From contig DAHXNY010000001.1 of the NCBI GenBank assembly GCA_027365175.1, positions 181,483 through 245,482 of the forward strand: a stretch of DNA of 64,000 bases, written 5' to 3'. Both the position numbers and the translations under genes were made by a program. The stretch is from Microcaldota archaeon (GTDB lineage Archaea; Micrarchaeota; Micrarchaeia; Micrarchaeales; CABMGC01). Positions within the stretch are counted from its first letter, which is position 1. Every line of letters starts with the position of its first letter. The notes below the pieces were generated by a model. It was not told the origin of the DNA. It saw only the letters and a program-made list of their open reading frames with translations, and ran no database searches. This document shows positions 10,247 through 48,450 of this stretch, one piece after another.

Positions 10247-10447
10247 CTCTCCTTTTGGTCATATTTAAACATTCCGAAATAGTGGAAGCGAACCATGCTG
10301 ATTTAAATATCAGATTAATCGAAATTGCTTCATCAATTTTTTAATCAAATTCCAGGATGCAAAGATCTCCAACGGCGACTACAAAACAACAGAATCCAAG
10401 ACTTCCACGTCCACGTATGTAAAATATGGCAAGCAAGAGGCGACCTG

Positions 10448-11077
10448 ATGGCTCTAAAAATAAACTACGTTACAGAAACTAAAAATGCCTACAGGATAAC
10501 CAAACGCAGGGCAGATTATACCGGAGAGGTAGGCATAAGCGAGGAGCTATTTAAGGATGCCATCAGGATATCAAGAGACTCATTCGCCTCAGTAATATCC
10601 GAGGACGAGGTAAAAAATCTGATAACGGGCTGCAGCCTGATGCTCGTCGCATACAACACAGACAATATGCAAAGAGTGGGATTCGCCGCATCGCATTATG
10701 AGGGAAACACCTGCTATTTTTCTTCGGCAGCAATCATGAAGTCAGAACAGAGTAATGGGTTATATCATATATTCAACAGATGGCGGATAAAGGAAGGGCT
10801 TGGTAACGGGTTCAATATCTTTACAGTCACTACGCAAAACCCAAAGGTTGAGAAGGGTATAGCGAGCGCCATGTATGCATTCCTCGAGAAAGGGACCATA
10901 GACGGATATTCCGTGCAAAGGGATCAAATACGCGGATATTACGGCCGCATGCTAACTACAGAAGTTCCCAGATCCTCAGATGAGAGCACAAACAGGATAT
11001 TCTCTCACCTGGATTACAATAGAGGGGACGCATTCTATATCTCATTTTCAGTCAGAAAAAGGACAAGATTTTTCTAG
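10448..11077 (+). CDS. Lineage-specific protein, first of a tandem paralogue pair
   Basis: The track starts at 10325, but ATG at 10448 gives 210 residues that match the length of its downstream paralogue (201), so I prefer it. Shared segments with that gene include VGFAAS, a Gln-Asn/Ser-Asn-Gly motif before a YH(I/M)FN segment, GFxIFTVTTQNP and DESxN. The core could be a GNAT-like acyltransferase fold, but the acetyl-CoA loop (Q/RxxGxG/A) is not evident, so I do not assign one. The next gene starts 9 nt downstream, so the two are co-transcribed. Function is unknown. Confidence 0.7.
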   Translation: MALKINYVTETKNAYRITKRRADYTGEVGISEELFKDAIRISRDSFASVISEDEVKNLITGCSLMLVAYNTDNMQRVGFAASHYEGNTCYFSSAAIMKSEQSNGLYHIFNRWRIKEGLGNGFNIFTVTTQNPKVEKGIASAMYAFLEKGTIDGYSVQRDQIRGYYGRMLTTEVPRSSDESTNRIFSHLDYNRGDAFYISFSVRKRTRFF

Positions 11078-11086
11078 GGGGAATCG

Positions 11087-11692
11087 ATGGTTTCAAGAGA
11101 GAGCACTGGAAAATACTCGATAACACAGCAGAAAGCCGCATGGGGAAGGAGCATTGACGTAGACAAATCTGAACTTAAGGATGTCATGAGGGTGGCCAAA
11201 AATGCGTTTGCCCAGACAGCATCGGAGAGGTGGATAACGCGCCTTCTCACCGCAAACAACCTGTTGCTGTCAGCATGCAGAAAGGACACCAAGGCGAAAG
11301 TGGGTTTCGCAGCATCCGAATACCAAAGCGACGAATGCCACCTTGTCACTGCTTTTATTGCACGATCGGAGCAGAACAATGGAATATATCATATGTTCAA
11401 CAAATTGCGCATATCGGACGGACTGGGCGAGGGATTCAGTATTTTTACCGTCACTACCCAGAATCCAAATGTGGAAAGGGGTGTATCAAGAGCCATGCAG
11501 TACTTTATCTATCAGGGAAACATTTCCTCATACTCTTTAACAAGAGAGCTCAGAAGGCGAACGCTTCCAAAGATGCTTACTCCGTATGTGCCAAAATGCC
11601 CCGATGAGAGTATAAACAGCAACTATTATTCGCTGAATTATAAGAAGGGGGACGCATTCAGGCTTACCTTCTCAGTAGCAAGGAAAAAGTAG
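11087..11692 (+). CDS. Lineage-specific protein, second of a tandem paralogue pair
   Basis: This 201-residue protein is clearly related to the upstream gene along its whole length. Both share SEQNNGIYHMFNKLRISDG-like and FTVTTQNP segments and end in a short strand with basic residues. The pair arose by duplication and then diverged to perhaps 40 percent identity by eye. Both keep the block around FTVTTQNPxVExG, so that block is probably the active or binding site. No signal peptide or membrane segment is seen. It is convergent with trm1, with 5 nt between stops. Function is unknown. Confidence 0.7.
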   Translation: MVSRESTGKYSITQQKAAWGRSIDVDKSELKDVMRVAKNAFAQTASERWITRLLTANNLLLSACRKDTKAKVGFAASEYQSDECHLVTAFIARSEQNNGIYHMFNKLRISDGLGEGFSIFTVTTQNPNVERGVSRAMQYFIYQGNISSYSLTRELRRRTLPKMLTPYVPKCPDESINSNYYSLNYKKGDAFRLTFSVARKK

Positions 11693-29961: not shown

Positions 29962-30888
29962 GTGATTGTAGTGGGTGTGGTTGTCGGTGCAAGTCTTCAG
30001 AATAAGAGCATCGAATATACTGCAAACGCTCCAAATGGAGATACAATATTCGAAAGACTTGAACGGTCTCTTACTGTTGATGAACTTAGGAGATATGTGA
30101 GAGAAACAAGACCAATATTCAGAGGTTACGCAACTGTCGCAATTGATGAACATGTGGAGATTTTTTATGGTGACAAAGATACTGATGGTGTAATAGGCAC
30201 AAAGCCCAAAAACGGATCAAGTTATGCGTTCAGTTTTCTTGCTGTAAAGATAATTGTCCGCAACAAGGAATATGTTGTGGACTTGATACCGTTATACGAC
30301 AACAAAGTTGCTGAGCATACGATAGAAGTATTGGAGGAACTAGTGAAGTTATACAGAATAAATATGATCCTCATAGATGCAGGTTTTAGAGACTCAGATT
30401 TGTTGAACTGGATAGTAGGAAGAGATATTCACCTCATAACGCGCATGAGAACATCGAAGAATCTCAGGATAAAAGACGTCGAATACAATAAGGCGTATCT
30501 GTACTCTTCTCTGTACGAGAAAGGCACATACAACTCCATATGTAAAAAGATGTTCGTGTATAGGTTCAGGGATAAAAAACACAGAGATTTTTACCTCTTA
30601 TCAGATATGGATGAAGAACCGTCATGGATAAAAGATACCTATCGACTGAGATGGGGAATAGAAACTGGATTCAGGGACGTAAACAAAATGGAGATAAAGA
30701 CGACAACAAAGAACAAGGTAATACGGCTGTTTTTCTATATCATCTCCGTTCTTATGTATAACATCTGGATAGAGGTACGTTCAGAGTCCTATGTTCGACT
30801 AGACACGTTGAGGTCCATTCTAATAAGAATTGTTGTAAGTTCCATGGAATTGCGTGGTAATTTACTTCGTATAATGGGATTGGGGTAA
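29962..30888 (+). CDS. DDE transposase, IS4/ISH3-like, N-terminus probably truncated
   Basis: The 308-residue frame shows an RNase H-type catalytic triad: D62 in TVAIDEHVEIFYG, D139 in MILIDAGF, and E234 in YRLRWGIETGFRD. GTKPKNGSSYAFSF is typical of ISH3-like members. The first 13 residues (MIVVGVVVGASLQ) are the antisense of the Thr repeats of the neighbouring surface gene, so they are not original. Real homology seems to begin around NKSIEYTANAP, which leaves some 50-80 N-terminal residues missing compared with full-length members (about 390). Activity is doubtful. The family call is mine by motif and should be tested by profile search. Confidence 0.78.
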   Translation: MIVVGVVVGASLQNKSIEYTANAPNGDTIFERLERSLTVDELRRYVRETRPIFRGYATVAIDEHVEIFYGDKDTDGVIGTKPKNGSSYAFSFLAVKIIVRNKEYVVDLIPLYDNKVAEHTIEVLEELVKLYRINMILIDAGFRDSDLLNWIVGRDIHLITRMRTSKNLRIKDVEYNKAYLYSSLYEKGTYNSICKKMFVYRFRDKKHRDFYLLSDMDEEPSWIKDTYRLRWGIETGFRDVNKMEIKTTTKNKVIRLFFYIISVLMYNIWIEVRSESYVRLDTLRSILIRIVVSSMELRGNLLRIMGLG

Positions 30889-39339: not shown

Positions 39340-40359
39340 TCATCTCAGCATCGTCTGGTTGCATCCTGCAACAGCCCCGAGCTGCCCGCTTATTATTAGC
39401 TTCAGATAGCCTATAAGAGGCACTGTGGCTATATTGTACCCTATTACACTGCTCTGGTTTATAGGATAATTGCCGAATTCCATATCAAGGCCCGGGTTGT
39501 TGTCCCCTTTTGTAAGTATGTAATAGGAACCATTGACATCCAGCGCGGCAACGACCCTGTGTATTATGTCTCCGCTGAAGTAGTCCGAAGGCGTGGTCTG
39601 GTAGATGATTATAGGGTTGGAGTAATTCTCTATCACAGTATGGTTGGCTATCGTTATAGAAGAGGTATATACTGCCTGTTCCGTAACGCCGTTTATAACC
39701 ACCTTGCCTATGGAATAATTGTATCTTATCAGATTCCTGCCCTGATAGCCTGCAGGAACCGCACATCTTGCGTATGCAGTAGGTTCAGACAGGCTGGAGT
39801 AGTAATCTATGCAGTGGGTGTTGTAGAGCCCTATGCCGTAAGTGGAATTGCTGAAGTTTCCCATATATGCTATATCGGAGGGATACGCCTTTGCATACGC
39901 GAAGTACGCAAGGAACTCGCTGTTAATGTTTGCTTCCATGCTGTTGAATTGGCTTCGGGTAACATTGATCACGGGTATATGGTTGCTCTGAAGGAAGGAT
40001 GACATATTGCTTATCCCATGGAGGAAGACCAGGTCTCCCCTATTCAATACAGGAAGCATGCTGCAGCTCGCCACAACGTTTACCGGCTGCGTAGTGCCAA
40101 GCACTATTATCAACACCAGCCATATTACAGCTACCACTGCAAGGGCCTTTGCCACATCGACTACGGTGCCCTTCGCTCCCTCCTCCTTAACGCTCTGCCT
40201 GAATTCGTACATCAGTATTATGACAACTAATGCAAATGCCCCTATGCCTACGAACACACTGCTTGTAAATGCATAAGCAACTACTGCAACTACTAACAGT
40301 GCGTAAAGCAGCCAGCTGACATAATCATGCCTCTCCTTTTCCTTATTCAAAATACTCAT
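39340..40359 (-). CDS. Signal peptidase I, archaeal SEC11-like with extra domains
   Basis: The 339-residue enzyme cuts signal peptides from secreted proteins. Four predicted helices occupy the N-terminal 95 residues (two at about 15-50, one or two at 68-90). The catalytic Ser is S100 in VASCSMLP. The catalytic His is in DIIHRVVAALD, and the conserved Asp segment is KGDNNPGLD. This Ser-His-Asp arrangement is archaeal and not the bacterial Ser-Lys. The protein is much longer than typical archaeal forms (150-220) because of the multi-helix N-terminus and about 110 inserted extracytoplasmic residues between Ser and His. Its ATG overlaps the SMC stop by 4 nt. Confidence 0.88.
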   Translation of the reverse strand: MSILNKEKERHDYVSWLLYALLVVAVVAYAFTSSVFVGIGAFALVVIILMYEFRQSVKEEGAKGTVVDVAKALAVVAVIWLVLIIVLGTTQPVNVVASCSMLPVLNRGDLVFLHGISNMSSFLQSNHIPVINVTRSQFNSMEANINSEFLAYFAYAKAYPSDIAYMGNFSNSTYGIGLYNTHCIDYYSSLSEPTAYARCAVPAGYQGRNLIRYNYSIGKVVINGVTEQAVYTSSITIANHTVIENYSNPIIIYQTTPSDYFSGDIIHRVVAALDVNGSYYILTKGDNNPGLDMEFGNYPINQSSVIGYNIATVPLIGYLKLIISGQLGAVAGCNQTMLR

Positions 40360-43300
40360 CTGCCTCTCGTCAATTCCGCTATCTCGACTCCCACTACATT
40401 CGATTCCGCAGACTCCTTTATTACACCTACTGCGGCATCCGCCTCCACGACCAGGGAATCATTGTGGCTCACCACCACAAACTGCGCATCCTTCGACATG
40501 CCCTTTATCAATTTGGATAGCAGCCTTGAGTTGTCCTTGTCAAGGGCAGAGTCGACCTCGTCAAATACGTATATCCCTGAAGGATTCCTGGTGAATATCG
40601 CAAAAATCAATACCAGCACTGCAAAGGCCTTCTCCCCTCCAGACAGCTGTATCACGGACCTTGATGCGCCTGCCTCCTTTATGGAGATCTCAAGCCCGCT
40701 CTGTAATGGGTTTGACATGTCGCTCAGCTTCAGGGTCGCATCCTTTATCTCGGATATGTTCTTGTGCAGCTTCGTGAAATTCTTGCTCACATCGTTGAAG
40801 GTATCCATGAATATCTGCAGCTTCTTCGATTCTATCTCGTTTATCATGTTAAGAACGGCTTCCTTCTCAGCTTCAAGAGTGAGCACCTTCGCATCGGCCT
40901 CGTTAACCTCCTTCTTCTTAAGCACGTATATCTCAGGAGCCTTAAGGTTGACATTTCCAAGATCCTTTATCTTAAGGCCAAGAAGGTTTGCCTCAGCCTC
41001 CATATCCTCCAACCTTCCATTTACGGTCTCTATCTCTCCATCATAGGAAGCAAACTCTGCCTTTATGTCGCTCAATCTTGTCTCAGTCTGGCCTCTTACG
41101 ATATTAAGTTCATTGAGCTCCCTCTCCGCACCGGAAAGCTCTGCAGAGGTCCTGCCATTCTCAATGCCCATATTCTGGAGCTCCGCCTCCATCTTCTGCA
41201 TCCTCTCATAAGCCTTTGAAGTAACGCTGCTGCTGTTCTTTATCTCCTCCTCTATCTTCTTCCTTGAATCCTCAAGAACCTGCTTCCTCAACGCAAGTTC
41301 CTTTATCTCCTTCCTGCTCCTCTCTATCTCACTGTTCCTCTTCTTTATGGATGAGGTTATCCCGTTATCCCTCTCTCCGATCATCTCATTCTCTTTGGAA
41401 AGCTCTGCAATCCTTATCCTTGTCTTGTCAAGGCCGGAGCGGGCGTCATTCAGCCTCTTTCTCTCCTCTTCCATCGCTCCCTTGCCCTTCTTTCCCTTCT
41501 CCGCTGCGGTCAGCCTGCCCTTCAGCCTCTCTATCTCCATAGCTGTCTCAAGCTTTGCCTTATCCATCTCCTGAATGCTCTTCTCCATATCCACCGACTT
41601 GACCTCTATCTCCTTCGCAGCAGCTACCGAATCATTGAGCTTCTTTTCAGCTATCGCTATCTCAGAGGACAATCTGCCCGTCCTATCGTTTATCGACCTG
41701 AGCTCGCTCTCCAGAAGCATCTTCTCCTTCCTTGCATCAAACAGCTTTCCTCCAATGGCGTCAGTCGCCTCACGCGCTGCTCTCTTCTCGGCTTCAAACC
41801 TCTCTATGCTCATATCTATTGTCCTTACTGATACCTTTCCATATCCTGAGCCTCCGCTTATTATGCCCGAGCGCTCTACGAGCTCTCCATCAATTGTCAC
41901 ATACCTGTGCCTGCCTACGCCCTTCTTCTTTATCTGTGCGACGCTCTCGGCAAGGAAGGTATCCTCAAATATGTATTCGAAAGCCCTGCCGAACTTCCTG
42001 TCGAATTTTACCAGGTCGACGAGCTTCTCCATCCCATCATCATCCTTCTGTGCGACCGTCTTTATCTCCTTCAGCGGTATGAAGGTAGCCCTGCCCAACC
42101 CATTCCTCTTTATGTATTCTATTATGCTGTTGGCAACGTCAATATCATCCACGACAAAGTACTCCATCCTCGCTCCTGCAGCAGCCTCTATCGCAGCAGA
42201 GTGCTCAAGCTCATAAGTGCATAGCGAAGCTGCCTTTCCATAGAAACCATCCTTCTCCTTGAAGGCAGATGCAAGCTTGGTCTCAAGCTGGCTGTTCCTC
42301 TGCCTCGCATAAGATCTCTGCTCCCTGAGCTCTATGAGCTTCTCGTCAGCCCTCTCTATGGTTGCAGAAAGGCCTTTCGATTCTGATTCCAGCTTTTTCA
42401 GCTCTATGTCTATCTCCTTCAGCTGTGCCTCTATCTCGGGAACGCGCTTGCCAAGGTCATTCATCTCAGAGACGAGGCTCACGGTGCCCTTCGACACCTC
42501 ATCCGCCTGCTTCTTGTAGAATTCCTTCCTGTCGAGCATCGCCGATTTATCTGCACCTGTCCTGGAGATATGCTCCTGCTCCTCCATCAGCCTGCCGCTC
42601 AGCTCGAGTATCCTCTGGTTTATCAGGCGTATCTCGTCAGCCTTCTCATCTGCAATTCCAAGGTAATCGAGTTCAGAGACAACCTTTGCATATCTGCCTT
42701 CCTCCTGCCTGAGCCCTTCTATCTCCTTTGAATTGGCGGTCATCTTCTCAGATATCCCTTTCCGCTCAGCTTCAAGGGCAGCTATATCCGAATTGCACTG
42801 GACAATCTGCTGTTCCCTGTTTGAAAGCTCTGCCTTCACGTTTGCCAGTTCTGCCGCAGATATCTCCAGTTTCTTGCTCCTCTCTCCAGAAGAAGCCGTG
42901 CGCTCATTCATTTCCGATATGAGCTTCTGCCTCTCATCATTGAGCAGCTCTATCCTCTTGCCCATCTCTTCATACTTCTGCTTAAGCCCGCTCTTCTTCT
43001 GCTCTATAACTGTAATCTTTTTGCCTGCATCATCATAAGACATCTGCAATGCGTCTTTCTTCATGGAAAGCAGGCTGTATCTTAACGATCTGAGCCTCTT
43101 ATTGTAATTAAGGTAGGACTCGGCAACCTCCTTCTCCTTACTAAGCTCCCTCAGGAAACCTGTCCTCTCATTCAGAGAGACCCTTGCCTCAGATATCTTC
43201 TGGTCTACCTTGTCAAGCTCCTTAAGGCTCTCATCCTTCTTGATGTCAAATTCCTTTATGCCCGAAGCGATGTCTATGAGCTCCCTCCTCTCCTTGGGGT

Positions 43301-43733
43301 TCATGTCTATAACACGGTTTATCTCCCCCTGCAGCATCGTATTCGTGTAATCGGATTTTATCCCATGCTTCGCAAGAAGCTCCATCACGTCCCCTTTCCT
43401 CATCCTCTTGCCGTTAACCCTGTATGCATGCTTTCCATCAGAGCGTATGTACCTTGCTACCTCTACATTCTCATCTCCTGTAAAGGTGAGCTTGACATAA
43501 GCGGTGTGTAGGCCCTTCTTCTCCTTCAGTGAGTCTGACAGGAGCTCCTTCATGCTGTTTACTCTTAGTCTCTTCTTAGAAGTAACTCCGAGGCCGAATG
43601 TAAGCGCATCGAATATTGTTGACTTCCCTGAGCCGTTGCGCCCCACTATGCAGGTAAACCCATCGTTGAAAAGAAGCTCTGCGTGCCTGAATGACTTGAA
43701 CCTGTGTATAGTGAGTGATTTTAGATGTAGCAT
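40356..43733 (-). CDS. smc: Chromosome segregation ATPase SMC
   Basis: SMC condenses and helps segregate the chromosome. I start at ATG 43733 (1,125 residues). The track start is TTG at 43748. Walker A VGRNGSGKSTIFDAL lies near the N-terminus. Two long coiled coils flank a hinge around 500-640 that includes LEHSAAIEAAAGARMEYFVV. The C-terminal head has the signature QLSGGEKAFAVLVLIF and Walker B IYVFDEVDSALD. All ATPase motifs are intact. Genes for ScpA/ScpB are not adjacent. It is divergent from the VirB4-like operon and overlaps the signal peptidase gene by 4 nt. Confidence 0.97.
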   Translation of the reverse strand: MLHLKSLTIHRFKSFRHAELLFNDGFTCIVGRNGSGKSTIFDALTFGLGVTSKKRLRVNSMKELLSDSLKEKKGLHTAYVKLTFTGDENVEVARYIRSDGKHAYRVNGKRMRKGDVMELLAKHGIKSDYTNTMLQGEINRVIDMNPKERRELIDIASGIKEFDIKKDESLKELDKVDQKISEARVSLNERTGFLRELSKEKEVAESYLNYNKRLRSLRYSLLSMKKDALQMSYDDAGKKITVIEQKKSGLKQKYEEMGKRIELLNDERQKLISEMNERTASSGERSKKLEISAAELANVKAELSNREQQIVQCNSDIAALEAERKGISEKMTANSKEIEGLRQEEGRYAKVVSELDYLGIADEKADEIRLINQRILELSGRLMEEQEHISRTGADKSAMLDRKEFYKKQADEVSKGTVSLVSEMNDLGKRVPEIEAQLKEIDIELKKLESESKGLSATIERADEKLIELREQRSYARQRNSQLETKLASAFKEKDGFYGKAASLCTYELEHSAAIEAAAGARMEYFVVDDIDVANSIIEYIKRNGLGRATFIPLKEIKTVAQKDDDGMEKLVDLVKFDRKFGRAFEYIFEDTFLAESVAQIKKKGVGRHRYVTIDGELVERSGIISGGSGYGKVSVRTIDMSIERFEAEKRAAREATDAIGGKLFDARKEKMLLESELRSINDRTGRLSSEIAIAEKKLNDSVAAAKEIEVKSVDMEKSIQEMDKAKLETAMEIERLKGRLTAAEKGKKGKGAMEEERKRLNDARSGLDKTRIRIAELSKENEMIGERDNGITSSIKKRNSEIERSRKEIKELALRKQVLEDSRKKIEEEIKNSSSVTSKAYERMQKMEAELQNMGIENGRTSAELSGAERELNELNIVRGQTETRLSDIKAEFASYDGEIETVNGRLEDMEAEANLLGLKIKDLGNVNLKAPEIYVLKKKEVNEADAKVLTLEAEKEAVLNMINEIESKKLQIFMDTFNDVSKNFTKLHKNISEIKDATLKLSDMSNPLQSGLEISIKEAGASRSVIQLSGGEKAFAVLVLIFAIFTRNPSGIYVFDEVDSALDKDNSRLLSKLIKGMSKDAQFVVVSHNDSLVVEADAAVGVIKESAESNVVGVEIAELTRGR

Positions 43734-43827
43734 GTCCCTGATCGCCAAAAGTTACTGTGATTTAAGGAATAAAAAGCTTGCTCTACAGGGGCATCTCCTC
43801 AATTCACGCCTCATTATTCAGATGAGG

Positions 43828-43853: not shown

Positions 43854-43886
43854 TTAACGCAATAAATTCTTAACACAAAAGAAATG

Positions 43887-43916
43887 TTTATATATTATAG
43901 TATATGATATTATACT
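43887..43916 (+). promoter_or_regulatory. TATA box and overlapping palindrome before the VirB4-like operon
   Basis: TTTATATAT at 43887-43895 is a good archaeal TATA box. It is followed at 43899-43916 by AGTATATGATATTATACT, a palindrome with perfect 6-bp arms (AGTATA/TATACT). The transcription start would fall near 43920, so a protein bound here would block initiation. GGATGATT stands a few nt before the ATG at 43939 and may be the ribosome binding site. Confidence 0.5.
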
Positions 43917-43938
43917 CAGATAAATAAAGGATGATTAG

Positions 43939-44211
43939 ATGGAGATGGAGGTAGACACGGACAAACTTCACAGCATCGTCTTGCGGCTCTGCGGCCCTGA
44001 GGAAGGAGCCGCACTGCTCGCATACGTAAATTCCTCTTCAGAGGTGAGGTTAAGCGAGCTGATCTACAAACTGATACTGGGAGGCGCAGACAGGAGGGCC
44101 GTACTTTCAGAGCTGCGCAGGCTAAGGATAAGCGACAGCGACATAGCAGATGCGTTTGCAGGTGCGGTAAGCAGCATAGCAATGGGTGCCAACAATGAAA
44201 AAACAGAATAA
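43939..44211 (+). CDS. Small helical protein, first gene of the VirB4-like operon
   Basis: The protein has 90 residues, is soluble and mostly helical (VRLSELIYKLILGGADRRAVLSELRRLRISDSDIADAF). The middle may be a small helix-turn-helix. A C-terminal Ser/Ala segment (AGAVSSIAMGA) follows. I do not recognise the family. It overlaps the next gene by 17 nt (ATG 44195), so it belongs to the same transcript. As the promoter-proximal gene behind a palindrome it could be the operon's regulator, but that is only inference. Confidence 0.7.
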   Translation: MEMEVDTDKLHSIVLRLCGPEEGAALLAYVNSSSEVRLSELIYKLILGGADRRAVLSELRRLRISDSDIADAFAGAVSSIAMGANNEKTE

Positions 44212-44860
44212 GTACGCGATAAGCTATGTCATGTCTGTAAATGCGGACATGACCGCAGATGCAGGCCAGATAAGGGAGTATCTTTCAGAAGTAAAAACCT
44301 ACAAGCTGGCAGCAGAAGGGCAGAATGTCTGCGTCACTTCCGAAGAGCAGGACAGAAAATTCATATTCAACCTTGACGAAAACCGCATCTCCATAGAGCT
44401 TCTGTCAAATGCTGTACTGGAAAATCCTAAGAGAGAGGCTCTTCTGAAGCTTTTCGAACTGCTTTCCAATTGCAGATGGAAATACGAGATAAGGCTGTCT
44501 GAGGTATATGCCCATTTATCAGAGTCCCTGATAAAGAACCAGTTAAACCACTACTCAAATGCGATAAAGGAGATGAACTCTAACGAGTATTCAGACATTC
44601 TGCTCGCCAAGCGGATAATAGAGCTCAGAAAGAAGAATCTTGAACTGGAGAACGGCTATGCAAAGCTCCGAAATAAATTATACCAAATTGCACCGGAACT
44701 GATAATTGCAAGATCAGGCAGAGGAGCTACCGTGCAGGAGATCATGGAATACACCGGCCTTGACAAGCTTGAGGTCCAATCGGCACTCAACGAGCTGCCG
44801 GATCTCGGATACAGGATACTCCCTTCAAAGGGAAATAAACTGAACATCGTGAAGATATGA
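44195..44860 (+). CDS. Soluble protein with C-terminal winged helix, VirB4-like operon
   Basis: ATG at 44195 gives 221 residues. The track's GTG at 44186 is an alternative. The N-terminal 80 residues form a mixed domain. A coiled-coil-like middle (IIELRKKNLELENGYAKLRNKL) precedes a C-terminal winged helix with GATVQEIMEYTGLDKLEVQSALNELPDLGYRIL. This could bind DNA or regulate the operon. It overlaps the next gene by 4 nt (ATGA). Family not recognised. The combination of a helical arm and a winged helix next to a DNA-pump-like ATPase would fit DNA recognition, as in relaxosome accessory proteins, but this is speculation. Confidence 0.7.
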   Translation: MKKQNKYAISYVMSVNADMTADAGQIREYLSEVKTYKLAAEGQNVCVTSEEQDRKFIFNLDENRISIELLSNAVLENPKREALLKLFELLSNCRWKYEIRLSEVYAHLSESLIKNQLNHYSNAIKEMNSNEYSDILLAKRIIELRKKNLELENGYAKLRNKLYQIAPELIIARSGRGATVQEIMEYTGLDKLEVQSALNELPDLGYRILPSKGNKLNIVKI

Positions 44861-45426
44861 CGCAGTTAATAATTCCTTTCCTGTCGGAATTCTACCCTTT
44901 AATAGCAGGCGTAATCATATTTGCCCTGCTCAAGTCAATTAATCTGCTGAAGCACAAGACGCCCATCGATCTCGACACTCCGATAACAAAAGGAGAGATC
45001 GAACCTGAGGGGCCAATAAGCCCGAGCGAAGTGGCAAACATAAAGGACCTATCCGTGGAACCTGAAAAAGCCCATTCATTTTACCGCTATGTCTACCTTG
45101 AGATGAATAGGTTCAACAACTATGTAACTAACTCAACAGAGCCGCGCAAGGCAGCATTCTCAAGCATTGTCACCGACAGGCTCATAACAGATGGCATATT
45201 TTCAAAAAAACTATCGGAAAGCGATGTATTGGATATTGCATCTAAAAGATTCGGAATAATAGACCTTCACAGGTGCAACACGGTGCCTGAACGCATAAAA
45301 GGCCATAAAAAACTGGAGCTTGCCTTCCCGGATAAAGCGTCTTTCCTCAATAAAATACTCGGCAGGGAAGAACTCTCAGGCATTCTTCTCATACTGGCTG
45401 CAGGATACAATCTTGGCATGGTGTGA
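44857..45426 (+). CDS. Membrane-anchored protein, VirB4-like operon
   Basis: The 189-residue protein has one N-terminal helix (FYPLIAGVIIFALLKSINLL, about 12-31), an acidic Pro-rich linker and a soluble domain of about 120 residues. A weakly hydrophobic C-terminus (LSGILLILAAGYNLGMV) could be a second membrane contact. It overlaps its neighbours by 4 nt on the 5' side and the next frame nearly abuts at the 3' side, so it is translated as part of the unit. By position and single N-terminal anchor it recalls inner-membrane scaffold proteins of type IV secretion, but I see no family motif. Confidence 0.7.
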   Translation: MTQLIIPFLSEFYPLIAGVIIFALLKSINLLKHKTPIDLDTPITKGEIEPEGPISPSEVANIKDLSVEPEKAHSFYRYVYLEMNRFNNYVTNSTEPRKAAFSSIVTDRLITDGIFSKKLSESDVLDIASKRFGIIDLHRCNTVPERIKGHKKLELAFPDKASFLNKILGREELSGILLILAAGYNLGMV

Positions 45427-45428
45427 CG

Positions 45429-45623
45429 ATGAACGACCTCCTGTCCTTATTCAGATACATAATAGAGTCCTCGGCAGTCATTGTCTCTATCTTATCCATA
45501 ATAATTGTATTCTCAAATAACGGTCATGGTACTGCACCTGGACAAAAACTTCTGATGAAGCAGATTATGATATTCTCTGCAATCATAATTCTCTCTTCTG
45601 CAGTGTATATGGTGGCTCAATGA
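45429..45623 (+). CDS. Small two-helix membrane protein, VirB2/CedA1-like by size and place
   Basis: ATG at 45429 gives 64 residues. The track's GTG at 45423 overlaps the upstream gene. Two hydrophobic helices (about 13-30 and 44-62) are linked by a short polar loop with Asn, Gly, His and Lys. VirB2/TrbC pilins and archaeal CedA1/TedC have the same two-helix hairpin form and similar length. It stands two genes before the ATPase, which is the VirB2 position. No cleavable signal is evident. The match is by topology and order only. Confidence 0.62.
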   Translation: MNDLLSLFRYIIESSAVIVSILSIIIVFSNNGHGTAPGQKLLMKQIMIFSAIIILSSAVYMVAQ

Positions 45624-45883
45624 AGTACATCCGCTACAGAAATGGTTCCGGATATGAAAGGCATATATCACTTACATTGGCATACCTCAATGTCCAGATC
45701 GCCATTCTCTCAATAGCCTTGTCTATTGGCATAGGGGAATATGCCATCATTGCGGCATCAATCGCGGCTATGATCTCAATAGCATTGGCAAGAAAAGGAA
45801 TTCCAGGCAGGGCCAGAATATACCTGGTGCTACTGCCACCTAACCTCCTCTCCGTAATTGTATTGCTCTCAATAATTAGGTGA
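45620..45883 (+). CDS. Small two-helix membrane protein, VirB3-like by size and place
   Basis: The protein has 87 residues. A basic N-terminus (MKYIRYRNGSGYERHIS) leads to two hydrophobic helices (about 18-58, close together), a basic loop (ARKGIPGRARIY) and a C-terminal hydrophobic stretch (LVLLPPNLLSVIVLLSII). VirB3 proteins are about this size, have paired helices near the N-terminus and are encoded just before VirB4, sometimes fused to it. It overlaps the upstream gene by 4 nt and lies 4 nt before the ATPase. The family call is an inference from synteny and topology. Confidence 0.6.
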   Translation: MKYIRYRNGSGYERHISLTLAYLNVQIAILSIALSIGIGEYAIIAASIAAMISIALARKGIPGRARIYLVLLPPNLLSVIVLLSIIR

Positions 45884-45887
45884 ACGA

Positions 45888-48110
45888 ATGGCAGAACTGC
45901 ACTTCATAAGAATAAACGCTATCCCTTCAAGCGCAGACACTCTATTACTGCTGAACTCATTCCTCAACTCAAAGTTCATGGTGCTGCATGACACATCCGC
46001 AGGATCGACATCGATAATAACCGACTCTCCAACCGTAAGAACGGCAATGCACAACTTCGGCATATCTACGAATGAAGCAGATGATGCTTGGACAGAAGAA
46101 AGCGCAAAGAGATTCAAGGTATTCGCCACGTATCTATTCGAAGACAATACGCTTTTGTATAAAAAAGAGGGCAGCGTGCAGGAGCCCAAGCTCTCAGACA
46201 TGTATTCCATACTAAAGGGCACCGGTGCAAAGATTATAACTGCGTTCTGCCCTTCGGATATCAGAAGCACGACCAGGATAAAGAAGGAGATAGAGAGGGA
46301 TATAAGCGAGATGGAGGTAAGGGCGACAAAGAACGCAAGGCCCATACTGGAGAACAGGGACTATTCCGCACAGGTGGAGATCTACCACGATTCAGATAAA
46401 AAAAGAGTCCTCGGCTCTGCGCTCAACATGCTTAATGACATAATAATGAGCAACGGGACATCCTACAGATTTTATATGCTGGTAGAGCTATCTGCGGGGA
46501 CAGAGGAGGCCGAGAGATACCTTAAAAGCAAGCTTCTGATACTTGAAGAGTCTGAGATAACTGCGAAATCCATACCCGAACTTTATGCCGATATAGAAAA
46601 GGTCAACTGCATACCATTTTCCATAGAAAGATGCAGCAGGCTTCTCTCTTTCTCTGACAGAATAAGGAAGCTTCCTGCTATAAAGACATCATTCAATGCC
46701 TCTGAAAAGGGAATAGTCATAGGCAGTTATGTGCAAAACGGAATAAAGAGCACAGATGAAGAGCTGTGCATAATGAAAGAATCCCTGAATCTAGGCGCCA
46801 TAGTCTCTGGTCTTCCTGGTTCGGGAAAGACTCTTTCTGCAAAGAGCATAATAGGCCAGATCGCAAAGGAAGGCGATACTAAGACAGTCATCATATCTCC
46901 GAATGACGAATGGGACGGCTTCGGCCATTCAAACGGGCTTGAAGTGATAAGGATATACGATTCGCAGAAGCCGATAAACTTTTTCAGATGCAGCAGCACC
47001 ATAAATGCGGAAAGATTCTACGAAGACCTAAGCATGCTTATAGCTTCTGCTTCAAACGCCGGCCCTTACAGAAATTCAATAGAGAAGGTGCTTCTTTCGG
47101 CATTCAACAAGTCGTACAAGGATACCAAGGATCCTGATCCGAATACGGTATACTCGAACATAGAACTTGCGGTGATAGAGCAGCATGCGAAGGTGACAAA
47201 CACCTCGATAAAGTATACGAAGCACGGAGAAAACATCAAGGCGGCGCTTCAGAACCTGCGCCTCATAATATCAAGGCCAGAGTTTGCATACAATAACGGG
47301 ATAGACTTCAGGTCGATAATAGAGAGGGGAGCGGTCTTCGACCTTTCAAATGTGAGCAACAACATGAAGCCATTCTTCTACGCTCTTATCCTGAACCAGA
47401 TATACGGCTTTGCAGAATCATTCGATATATACGGGGATAGCAAGCTGCGCATGCTGATATGCCTCGAGGAGGCGCAGGTGGTATTCAGCAATGACGCGGA
47501 ATCGGCTGCAAACCAGGACCTTGAGAACAGGGTTCAGAATTTCAGGAAAAAGGGGATAGGATTATTTCTTATAACGCATAACGCTACCGATATCAGCCCG
47601 AGGATACGCAGGCTCTTGCAATTCAAGATGTACTTCAGGCAGAGCGCAGATGTGGCAAAGTACGCCGCAAACGATCTCATATTCAACGAAGCAGAAGATA
47701 TTGAGATCGTGAAGAAGATGAAGGTTTTGGGACAGAGGGTCTGCGCTGTAAGCTACATCGGCATGGATGAGAACAGGAAGGTCCCTGAAAACTCCGTCTT
47801 CGTCGAAGTGCCCGAAGTAACAGACAATAAGGCTTACAAAGAAGAGACAAACGTTGTTAAGAATACAAAGCTCTCCGATACCGTATTTACAATAAAAAGT
47901 AAGGAAAAAGGCCCACTCATAGGTGCAAACACTTACTTGCTGTATCTCGGGGAGAGGGTAGCGGAATGCGTTTCAGACAACGAAGGACGCGTGACATTTA
48001 CAGGCATGCTATTAGCTAAAAAATACGAAGTGGTCATATCAGGAGAGAAGAAAAATGAGTCCAAGAAGTTTAAAGTATGCGGAGGCAAGTCCGAAGAGCT
48101 GATCATATGA
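45888..48110 (+). CDS. VirB4/HerA-superfamily ATPase
   Basis: The 740-residue protein has a VirB4/TraC-like N-terminal half (about 1-290). The motor domain then has Walker A GLPGSGKT at 308-315 and Walker B LICLEEAQ with E527/E528. It also has the RKKGIGLFLITHNATDISP segment (motif 3 with the sensor polar residue) and arginine-rich RIRRLLQFKMYF, as in the HerA/FtsK/VirB4 group. A C-terminal Ig-like or carboxypeptidase-regulatory-like domain (about 665-740) is an unusual addition. It would power DNA transfer or pilus assembly at the membrane with the upstream small membrane proteins. It could instead be a HerA-like DNA pump, but no nurA is nearby. Confidence 0.85.
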   Translation: MAELHFIRINAIPSSADTLLLLNSFLNSKFMVLHDTSAGSTSIITDSPTVRTAMHNFGISTNEADDAWTEESAKRFKVFATYLFEDNTLLYKKEGSVQEPKLSDMYSILKGTGAKIITAFCPSDIRSTTRIKKEIERDISEMEVRATKNARPILENRDYSAQVEIYHDSDKKRVLGSALNMLNDIIMSNGTSYRFYMLVELSAGTEEAERYLKSKLLILEESEITAKSIPELYADIEKVNCIPFSIERCSRLLSFSDRIRKLPAIKTSFNASEKGIVIGSYVQNGIKSTDEELCIMKESLNLGAIVSGLPGSGKTLSAKSIIGQIAKEGDTKTVIISPNDEWDGFGHSNGLEVIRIYDSQKPINFFRCSSTINAERFYEDLSMLIASASNAGPYRNSIEKVLLSAFNKSYKDTKDPDPNTVYSNIELAVIEQHAKVTNTSIKYTKHGENIKAALQNLRLIISRPEFAYNNGIDFRSIIERGAVFDLSNVSNNMKPFFYALILNQIYGFAESFDIYGDSKLRMLICLEEAQVVFSNDAESAANQDLENRVQNFRKKGIGLFLITHNATDISPRIRRLLQFKMYFRQSADVAKYAANDLIFNEAEDIEIVKKMKVLGQRVCAVSYIGMDENRKVPENSVFVEVPEVTDNKAYKEETNVVKNTKLSDTVFTIKSKEKGPLIGANTYLLYLGERVAECVSDNEGRVTFTGMLLAKKYEVVISGEKKNESKKFKVCGGKSEELII

Positions 48111-48171
48111 GATTGACAGCATTACTACAAATATGGTAATGGCCGTTCATGGATTATTTACAAAGGAGATG

Positions 48172-48450
48172 ATGTCAAAGGCAATAGCTGTACAGGAAAT
48201 AAAACATTCTCCTACTCTAAACACTGTGATTATGGTAGAGAATTTTATAAAGAACGCAAAGAATTCCATAATAACAGTACCTGAAATCAAGAGAAACTTG
48301 CCAAAGCAGGTTAACCACTATACGCCGAAGGTAATTCTTGAATACCTTGAAAACAGCGGCAAGATAGTTGTTACCCTGAAGGGCATAACGCGGATCCATA
48401 ATCCAAATGCGAATCTCAGGCAAGCGATAGCGAAGGGCATTGACGTATGA
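48172..48450 (+). CDS. Winged-helix protein, probable antitoxin-like partner of a decayed toxin
   Basis: ATG at 48172 gives 92 residues. ATG 48169 and a track start at 48133 are alternatives. GGAG lies just before. The protein has LNTVIMVENFIKNAKNSIITVPEIKRNLPKQ and TPKVILEYLENSGKIVVTLKGITRI, a small winged helix seen in archaea in pairs with toxins. Its TGA overlaps the ATG of the next, broken RelE/ParE-like frame. Such overlap is typical of toxin-antitoxin pairs. It lies 62 nt after the VirB4-like gene (by the 48172 start) and may also be a regulator of that operon. Confidence 0.68.
   Translation: MSKAIAVQEIKHSPTLNTVIMVENFIKNAKNSIITVPEIKRNLPKQVNHYTPKVILEYLENSGKIVVTLKGITRIHNPNANLRQAIAKGIDV

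Follow-up and report, generated by a model that had tools for sequence, protein, structure and literature searches.

Distal half of a split operon in Micrarchaeota: a probable relaxase-less envelope machine derived from a type IV secretion system

What kind of machine is served by the six closely packed genes at positions 43939-48110 of this stretch of Micrarchaeota DNA? The stretch (the window, 64,000 nucleotides of contig DAHXNY010000001.1 of a Microcaldota archaeon, whose 795-kb assembly is called G000 here, with C22 and C25 as other contigs of it) had been read in a first-pass annotation as carrying a compact VirB2-VirB3-VirB4-like operon. These genes are probably the distal half of a chromosomal, relaxase-less envelope machine, a domesticated derivative of a type IV secretion system (T4SS) similar to the Ced and Ted systems, and most likely a DNA importer. 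The T4SS-derived identity of the system is held with high confidence, while DNA import specifically, with cargo and direction taken from analogy, is a tentative proposal.

The coordinates of the six open reading frames (ORFs) were confirmed, and each overlaps or abuts the next, with a 17-nucleotide (nt) overlap, ATGA overlaps and gaps of 2-4 nt. The operon comprises:

43882-43900, + strand: TATA-box-like stretch AAATGTTTATATATTATAG, read from the sequence about 40-55 nt 5' of the first ATG, with TTTATATATTATA at about 45 nt; putative promoter.
43939-44211, + strand: P0001, 90 amino acids (aa), detached C-terminal domain of a second ATPase (ATPase2, below), by profile match, identity to a congener and the ratio of nonsynonymous to synonymous substitution rates (dN/dS).
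44195-44860, + strand: P0002, 221 aa, soluble, with a winged-helix-like C-terminus, by a weak MarR_2 match, conservation and a paralogue in a second system (below).
44857-45426, + strand: P0003, 189 aa, fast evolving, with a single N-terminal membrane helix and a soluble remainder.
45429-45623, + strand: P0004, 64 aa, two membrane helices, position and topology kept but sequence little; an alternative GTG start lies at 45423.
45620-45883, + strand: P0005, 87 aa, 2-3 membrane helices, VirB3-like in position, size and topology only.
45888-48110, + strand: P0006, 740 aa, ATPase of the VirB4/HerA superfamily, by profile, predicted-structure and motif matches.

The surroundings of the P0006 homologue were examined in 40 related regions, and in 26 of them it ends a longer operon, which in its full form has nine genes in the order pilin - VirB6-like - p245 - ATPase2 - P0002 - P0003 - P0004 - P0005 - P0006. 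Of the first four products, the pilin (about 125 aa) has two helices and is hydrophobic over an N-terminal stretch, the VirB6-like protein (about 350 aa) has 7-8 helices, p245 (about 245 aa) has two helices at its N-terminus, and ATPase2 (about 375 aa) is a P-loop ATPase. A P0002 homologue (conserved in 32 of 41 loci) comes next, usually with a P0003 homologue and a pair of small membrane proteins that share the topology of P0004 and P0005. A separate scan recovered the order from pilin to P0006 in 36 of 80 named Micrarchaeota loci. Gene order, whose survey in relatives the first-pass annotation had proposed, is conserved.

The six window genes are the distal half of this larger system, the operon being broken inside the ATPase2 gene in the window's genus. 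The genes of the window genome for the pilin, the VirB6-like protein, p245 and the ATPase2 core are found at G000:C22:12803-15820, between opposite-strand genes, and this half-operon has a TATA-like stretch of its own, TTATATAT, at a distance from the first ATG similar to that in the window operon. Its two end genes are:

G000:C22:12803-13192: VirB2-like pilin.
G000:C22:14969-15820: ATPase2 core, 283 aa.

The shortened ATPase2 stops at the expected start of its C-terminal domain, and the ATPase2 profile recovers P0001 (E 1.9e-16, model positions 287-372). P0001, previously listed as one of two soluble proteins at the head of the operon, shares 60% identity over 88 aa with the fused form of ATPase2 in congener G004, in which the operon is intact; the rest of that description, a soluble P0002 and a single-anchor P0003, was upheld. 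Detached domains like P0001 occur in four congeners besides the window genome, three of which (G001, G003, G005) also possess a short ATPase2. Against congener G002, dN/dS is 0.11-0.32 for each of the six window genes (0.11 for P0001); all six are under purifying selection, and the split ATPase2 product is therefore maintained. These values, together with a content and order that recur in dozens of genomes, place the gene run beyond chance. In those genomes inspected where the P0006 gene lies apart, the proximal genes remain intact together elsewhere. Since a relocated P0006 usually leaves the P0004/P0005-like pair in place after the P0003 homologue, P0002-P0005 can be regarded as a module and P0006 as its movable part.

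Two proteins of the relatives' operon bear out the earlier claim of a conjugation-related system. The pilin family matches Pfam T4SS_pilin (PF18895) in 17 of 22 members (best 4.1e-7) and TrbC/VirB2 (PF04956) in 14 of 22 (best 4.1e-5), and these profile matches show a VirB2-type pilin to be encoded there. The window genome's own copies match TrbC at 0.029 (C22) and 4.5e-6 (C25), both below curated cut-offs. The VirB2 role had been assigned to the 64-aa P0004; the VirB2-like pilin is instead the one on C22. ATPase2 matches CedB (8.9e-19), AAA_10 (1.2e-14), CD1110 VirB4 (3.1e-13) and also TraC, and a paralogue of it matches TraC/VirB4 proteins of bacterial plasmids by tblastn. By sequence, ATPase2 is shown to be a VirB4/CedB-like ATPase. 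A CedA/VirB6-like protein, earlier said to be "not visible", has one candidate on C22 and six paralogues on C25. This conserved protein is placed between pilin and ATPase, and in one paralogue from C25 the N-terminal hairpin is recognised by the VirB2 profile (domain E 5.2e-5), a relation of the same kind as that reported between CedA1 and CedA (PMC9905601). The name VirB6-like is used because of its architecture, its place and this match.

P0006 has intact ATPase motifs, Walker A GLPGSGKT (308-315) and Walker B LICLEEAQ (approximately 523-530), as already noted in the first-pass annotation; across 62 aligned sequences there is no variation in the G, P, G, G and K of Walker A or in the EE of Walker B. 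An alpha/beta N-terminal domain, a RecA-like core and a C-terminal beta domain (660-740) can be distinguished. Its profile matches include CD1110 VirB4 (2.8e-8) and CedD (1.3e-7), the latter being the commonest NCBIfam match across the family (24 of 39 members). The AlphaFold model (pLDDT, the predicted local distance difference test, 87.6) has R388 TrwK/VirB4 as its best PDB match (E 1.2e-14), with HerA close behind (4.3e-14). P0006 also matches Pfam DUF87 and HerA_C, and it might accordingly be an ordinary HerA repair helicase that happens to lie beside unrelated small membrane genes. HerA-NurA, which acts in DNA end resection, does share the FtsK-HerA superfamily with P0006 and ATPase2. A nurA gene elsewhere in the same genome had been named as the sign of such a helicase, but NurA was found in none of 12 genomes, while the same search was positive in 7 of 14 control genomes. 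Relatives hold separate HerA-like ORFs of about 550-620 aa beside the P0006 family, and the P0006 gene ends a conserved operon that contains a VirB2-like pilin. The absence of NurA from the 12 genomes and the pilin in the operon make the HerA explanation unlikely, and it is considered highly improbable.

The remaining proteins are less readily named. P0002 shows a weak MarR_2 match (0.0033), and its paralogue p241 (E 1.4e-17) holds the same place in the second system; P0003 matched no database family. The position and topology of P0005 fit a VirB3-like protein before VirB4, as had been claimed, and the case for P0005 as VirB3, like that for P0004 in any named role, is positional; the P0005 family had no match in Pfam or in a profile comparison with four PrgI proteins. 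A PDB search with p245 gave chance and coiled-coil matches only. Treated as a possible N-terminal domain of VirB4, p245 was concatenated with ATPase2, and bit scores were no higher. It weakly resembles (pairwise E 2.6e-4, probability 42%) a protein that lies between PrgI and a VirB4-like ATPase in Bacillales plasmids. On Bacillales megaplasmids typed as non-mobilizable, a putative pilin, PrgI, a 330-aa protein, a VirB4-like DUF87 ATPase and a roughly 1000-aa protein are encoded in a row (4.4-11 kb). This row is a variant T4SS with an order similar to that of p245 and ATPase2 in Micrarchaeota.

How the system is distributed bears on whether it is resident or mobile. P0006 is found at E <1e-20 in 76 of 196 genomes of the phylum, and 74 of these come from two families of one order. 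In most genomes of that order it is a single-copy gene, and 45 of 60 relatives have it at E <1e-100. The machine is chromosomal and occurs in most sampled genomes of one Micrarchaeota order. An integrated conjugative element, remnant or active and transferring itself, would account for the conjugative origin of every recognisable part, and its missing relaxase would be shared with archaeal conjugative plasmids, which also possess none that is recognised (PMC12857230). The earlier statement that no relaxase is present holds for PF03432, which was not found in eight genomes, other relaxase families not having been searched. Such an element is nevertheless very unlikely, given the single copy in most genomes of the order and the concentration of positives in two families; P0006 has no match in viral contigs or plasmids, the flanks are chromosomal, and the dispersal of the operon inside the chromosome argues for resident genes.

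The flanks of the operon are ordinary chromosomal genes, namely SMC and a geranylgeranyl-reductase-like gene. The SMC-family gene (40356-43748) is divergent and directly upstream, and is the same neighbour in congeners G002 and G003; Rad50-like genes have been reported within Ted loci (PMC9905601). A 105-aa ORF 3' of the operon (48133-48450) was rejected as a member, having no homologue in 40 related loci. The clearest mobile-element gene of the window, a 308-aa ORF at 29962-30888 that reads as a DDE-type transposase, is far from the operon. At 10325-11692 the window also contains a tandem pair of paralogous ORFs (about 250 and 201 aa) whose function was not recognised.

All 14 genomes checked have VirB6-like and ATPase2-like matches beyond the window-type operon, and most also have a second pilin match. 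The window genome contains the following cluster:

G000:C25:13562-31894: second, larger T4SS-like cluster.

It encodes a pilin, a 248-aa membrane protein, a tandem array of six VirB6-like proteins, two paralogues of p245, one ATPase, a zinc-finger-like membrane protein, the P0002 paralogue and a membrane protein of 808 aa. Between its membrane helices this last protein has a large N-terminal part, predicted to be extracellular. The gene order of the cluster is kept in G022, G032 and G057, the last partly covered. Because P0006 is single-copy in the window genome and has no homologue in this cluster, it might serve both systems. Divergent from the cluster, at G000:C25:10456-13229, are genes for a 522-aa secretion ATPase of TadA/GspE-like type and for a coiled-coil protein of 400 aa; the TadA-like ATPase was rejected as a VirB11 partner, as no homologue lies near the cluster in the relatives checked.

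Among the closest known systems is Ced, which is partnered by Ups-type pili in Sulfolobales. It too (CedA, CedA1, CedB, CedD; PMC9905601, PMC11868833) is chromosomal and relaxase-less, with a pilin, a multi-helix membrane protein and two VirB4/HerA-like ATPases, and among NCBIfam models CedB is the best match of ATPase2 and CedD the most frequent one of the P0006 family. It differs in that the Micrarchaeota ATPase2 has no N-terminal domain (which p245 may supply) and lies far under the curated CedB cut-off, its best score being 65.6 bits against 700; the Micrarchaeota system adds four conserved genes, P0002-P0005, occurs as two paralogous systems per genome and belongs to a different phylum, the window's organism being a Micrarchaeota and no member of Thermoproteota. 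Ted of Thermoproteales (TedA, TedB, TedC; PMC9905601) is alike by description, with a pilin bearing an N-terminal hydrophobic signal-like stretch and chromosomal VirB6/CedA-like and VirB4-like genes, whereas the Micrarchaeota system has two ATPases and a different gene set. The T4SS of Patescibacteria (class MPF_FATA; PMC12102498) are likewise relaxase-poor and chromosomal, with VirB2-like pilins, in ultrasmall host-dependent organisms; they are bacterial, however, and possess recognisable VirB3/PrgI, VirB6, VirB8 and the TrsD coupling protein, while VirB3 and VirB8 are not recognisable in the Micrarchaeota system. Finally, a nanohaloarchaeal pair of VirB4/TraG-like ATPases beside giant SPEARE-type proteins (PMC10266531) is likewise a case of VirB4-like ATPases encoded side by side in a DPANN symbiont, but the Micrarchaeota system has no giant Ig-repeat protein fused or linked to it and has pilin and VirB6-like genes.

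The machine probably moves DNA (or protein) across the cell envelope. The pilin would form a thin filament, or a channel, that reaches a neighbouring cell, and the VirB6-like protein a channel in the membrane. p245 and ATPase2, with P0001 as its C-terminal domain, would act as a VirB4/CedB divided among several genes, and P0006 as a second hexameric ATPase in the role that CedD has beside CedB. P0003, P0004 and P0005 may anchor the ATPases and link them to the channel, with P0002 as a cytosolic partner. DNA import is the leading guess because the arrangement of pilin, channel and two ATPases is the same as in Ced, which imports DNA using CedB and CedD (PMC11868833); the cargo could be DNA from host or sister cells, taken up for repair, recombination or nucleotides. 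The same machine could have the opposite use, delivering protein (or DNA) effectors into the host or attaching to it, a use already proposed for the Patescibacteria T4SS and the giant proteins of nanohaloarchaea. One co-cultured Micrarchaeota depends on an archaeal host (PMC5498576), genes of the relaxase-poor Patescibacteria T4SS proved essential to the epibiotic growth of one strain (PMC12102498), and VirB4-like ATPases of nanohaloarchaea are linked to host-binding giant proteins (PMC10266531); the large predicted extracellular part of the 808-aa protein would also suit this use. The operon, however, contains no conserved effector or adhesin gene, and the nearest archaeal family models of the ATPases are the DNA importers CedB and CedD, so that effector delivery or attachment is regarded as possible but rather doubtful.

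Several points weigh against a Ced-like importer. P0006 is a member of the FtsK-HerA superfamily, as its designation "VirB4/HerA-type" had implied, and in predicted-structure comparison the VirB4 and HerA folds match it about equally. In the searches made, all members of the P0006 and ATPase2 families scored below the curated cut-offs for VirB4 and Ced. The p245 family had no Pfam match, and no operon protein has profile support as VirB3 or VirB8, VirB8 models not having been tested separately. The VirB6-like protein gave no meaningful Pfam or PDB-sequence match, neither it nor the C25 pilin matched NCBIfam, and the predicted model of the VirB6-like protein had no PDB fold match. The operon is broken in the window genus, where the two half-operons are presumably co-expressed. 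Sequence gives neither the direction of transport nor its cargo.

A search of the open-access literature, subscription papers and preprints being outside it, found no T4SS-like system described for Micrarchaeota. For one co-cultured member, type IV pili and unspecified conjugative elements are on record (PMC5498576); a recent review of T4SS names no DPANN system (PMC12857230). In a co-culture of Micrarchaeota, nanotubes and filaments resembling pili have been observed (PMC11329633), and the search found no conjugation-type machinery assigned to them. One possible, though unlikely, extension is that an order-wide pair of domesticated T4SS-like machines joins the cytoplasm of symbiont and host and imports host DNA or other macromolecules, as a counterpart of the survival-essential T4SS of Patescibacteria, with VirB4 function spread over at least three polypeptides (p245, the ATPase2 core and P0001) and two loci.

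For the question of how ultrasmall archaea and the hosts on which they depend exchange material, the conserved pilin, the candidate channel and the two ATPases are concrete proteins to seek in Micrarchaeota. With ATPase2 divided between two loci, the genus offers a natural experiment in which parts are able to work in trans. As the Patescibacteria parallel suggests, relaxase-poor T4SS derivatives were retained by host-dependent lineages in both domains.

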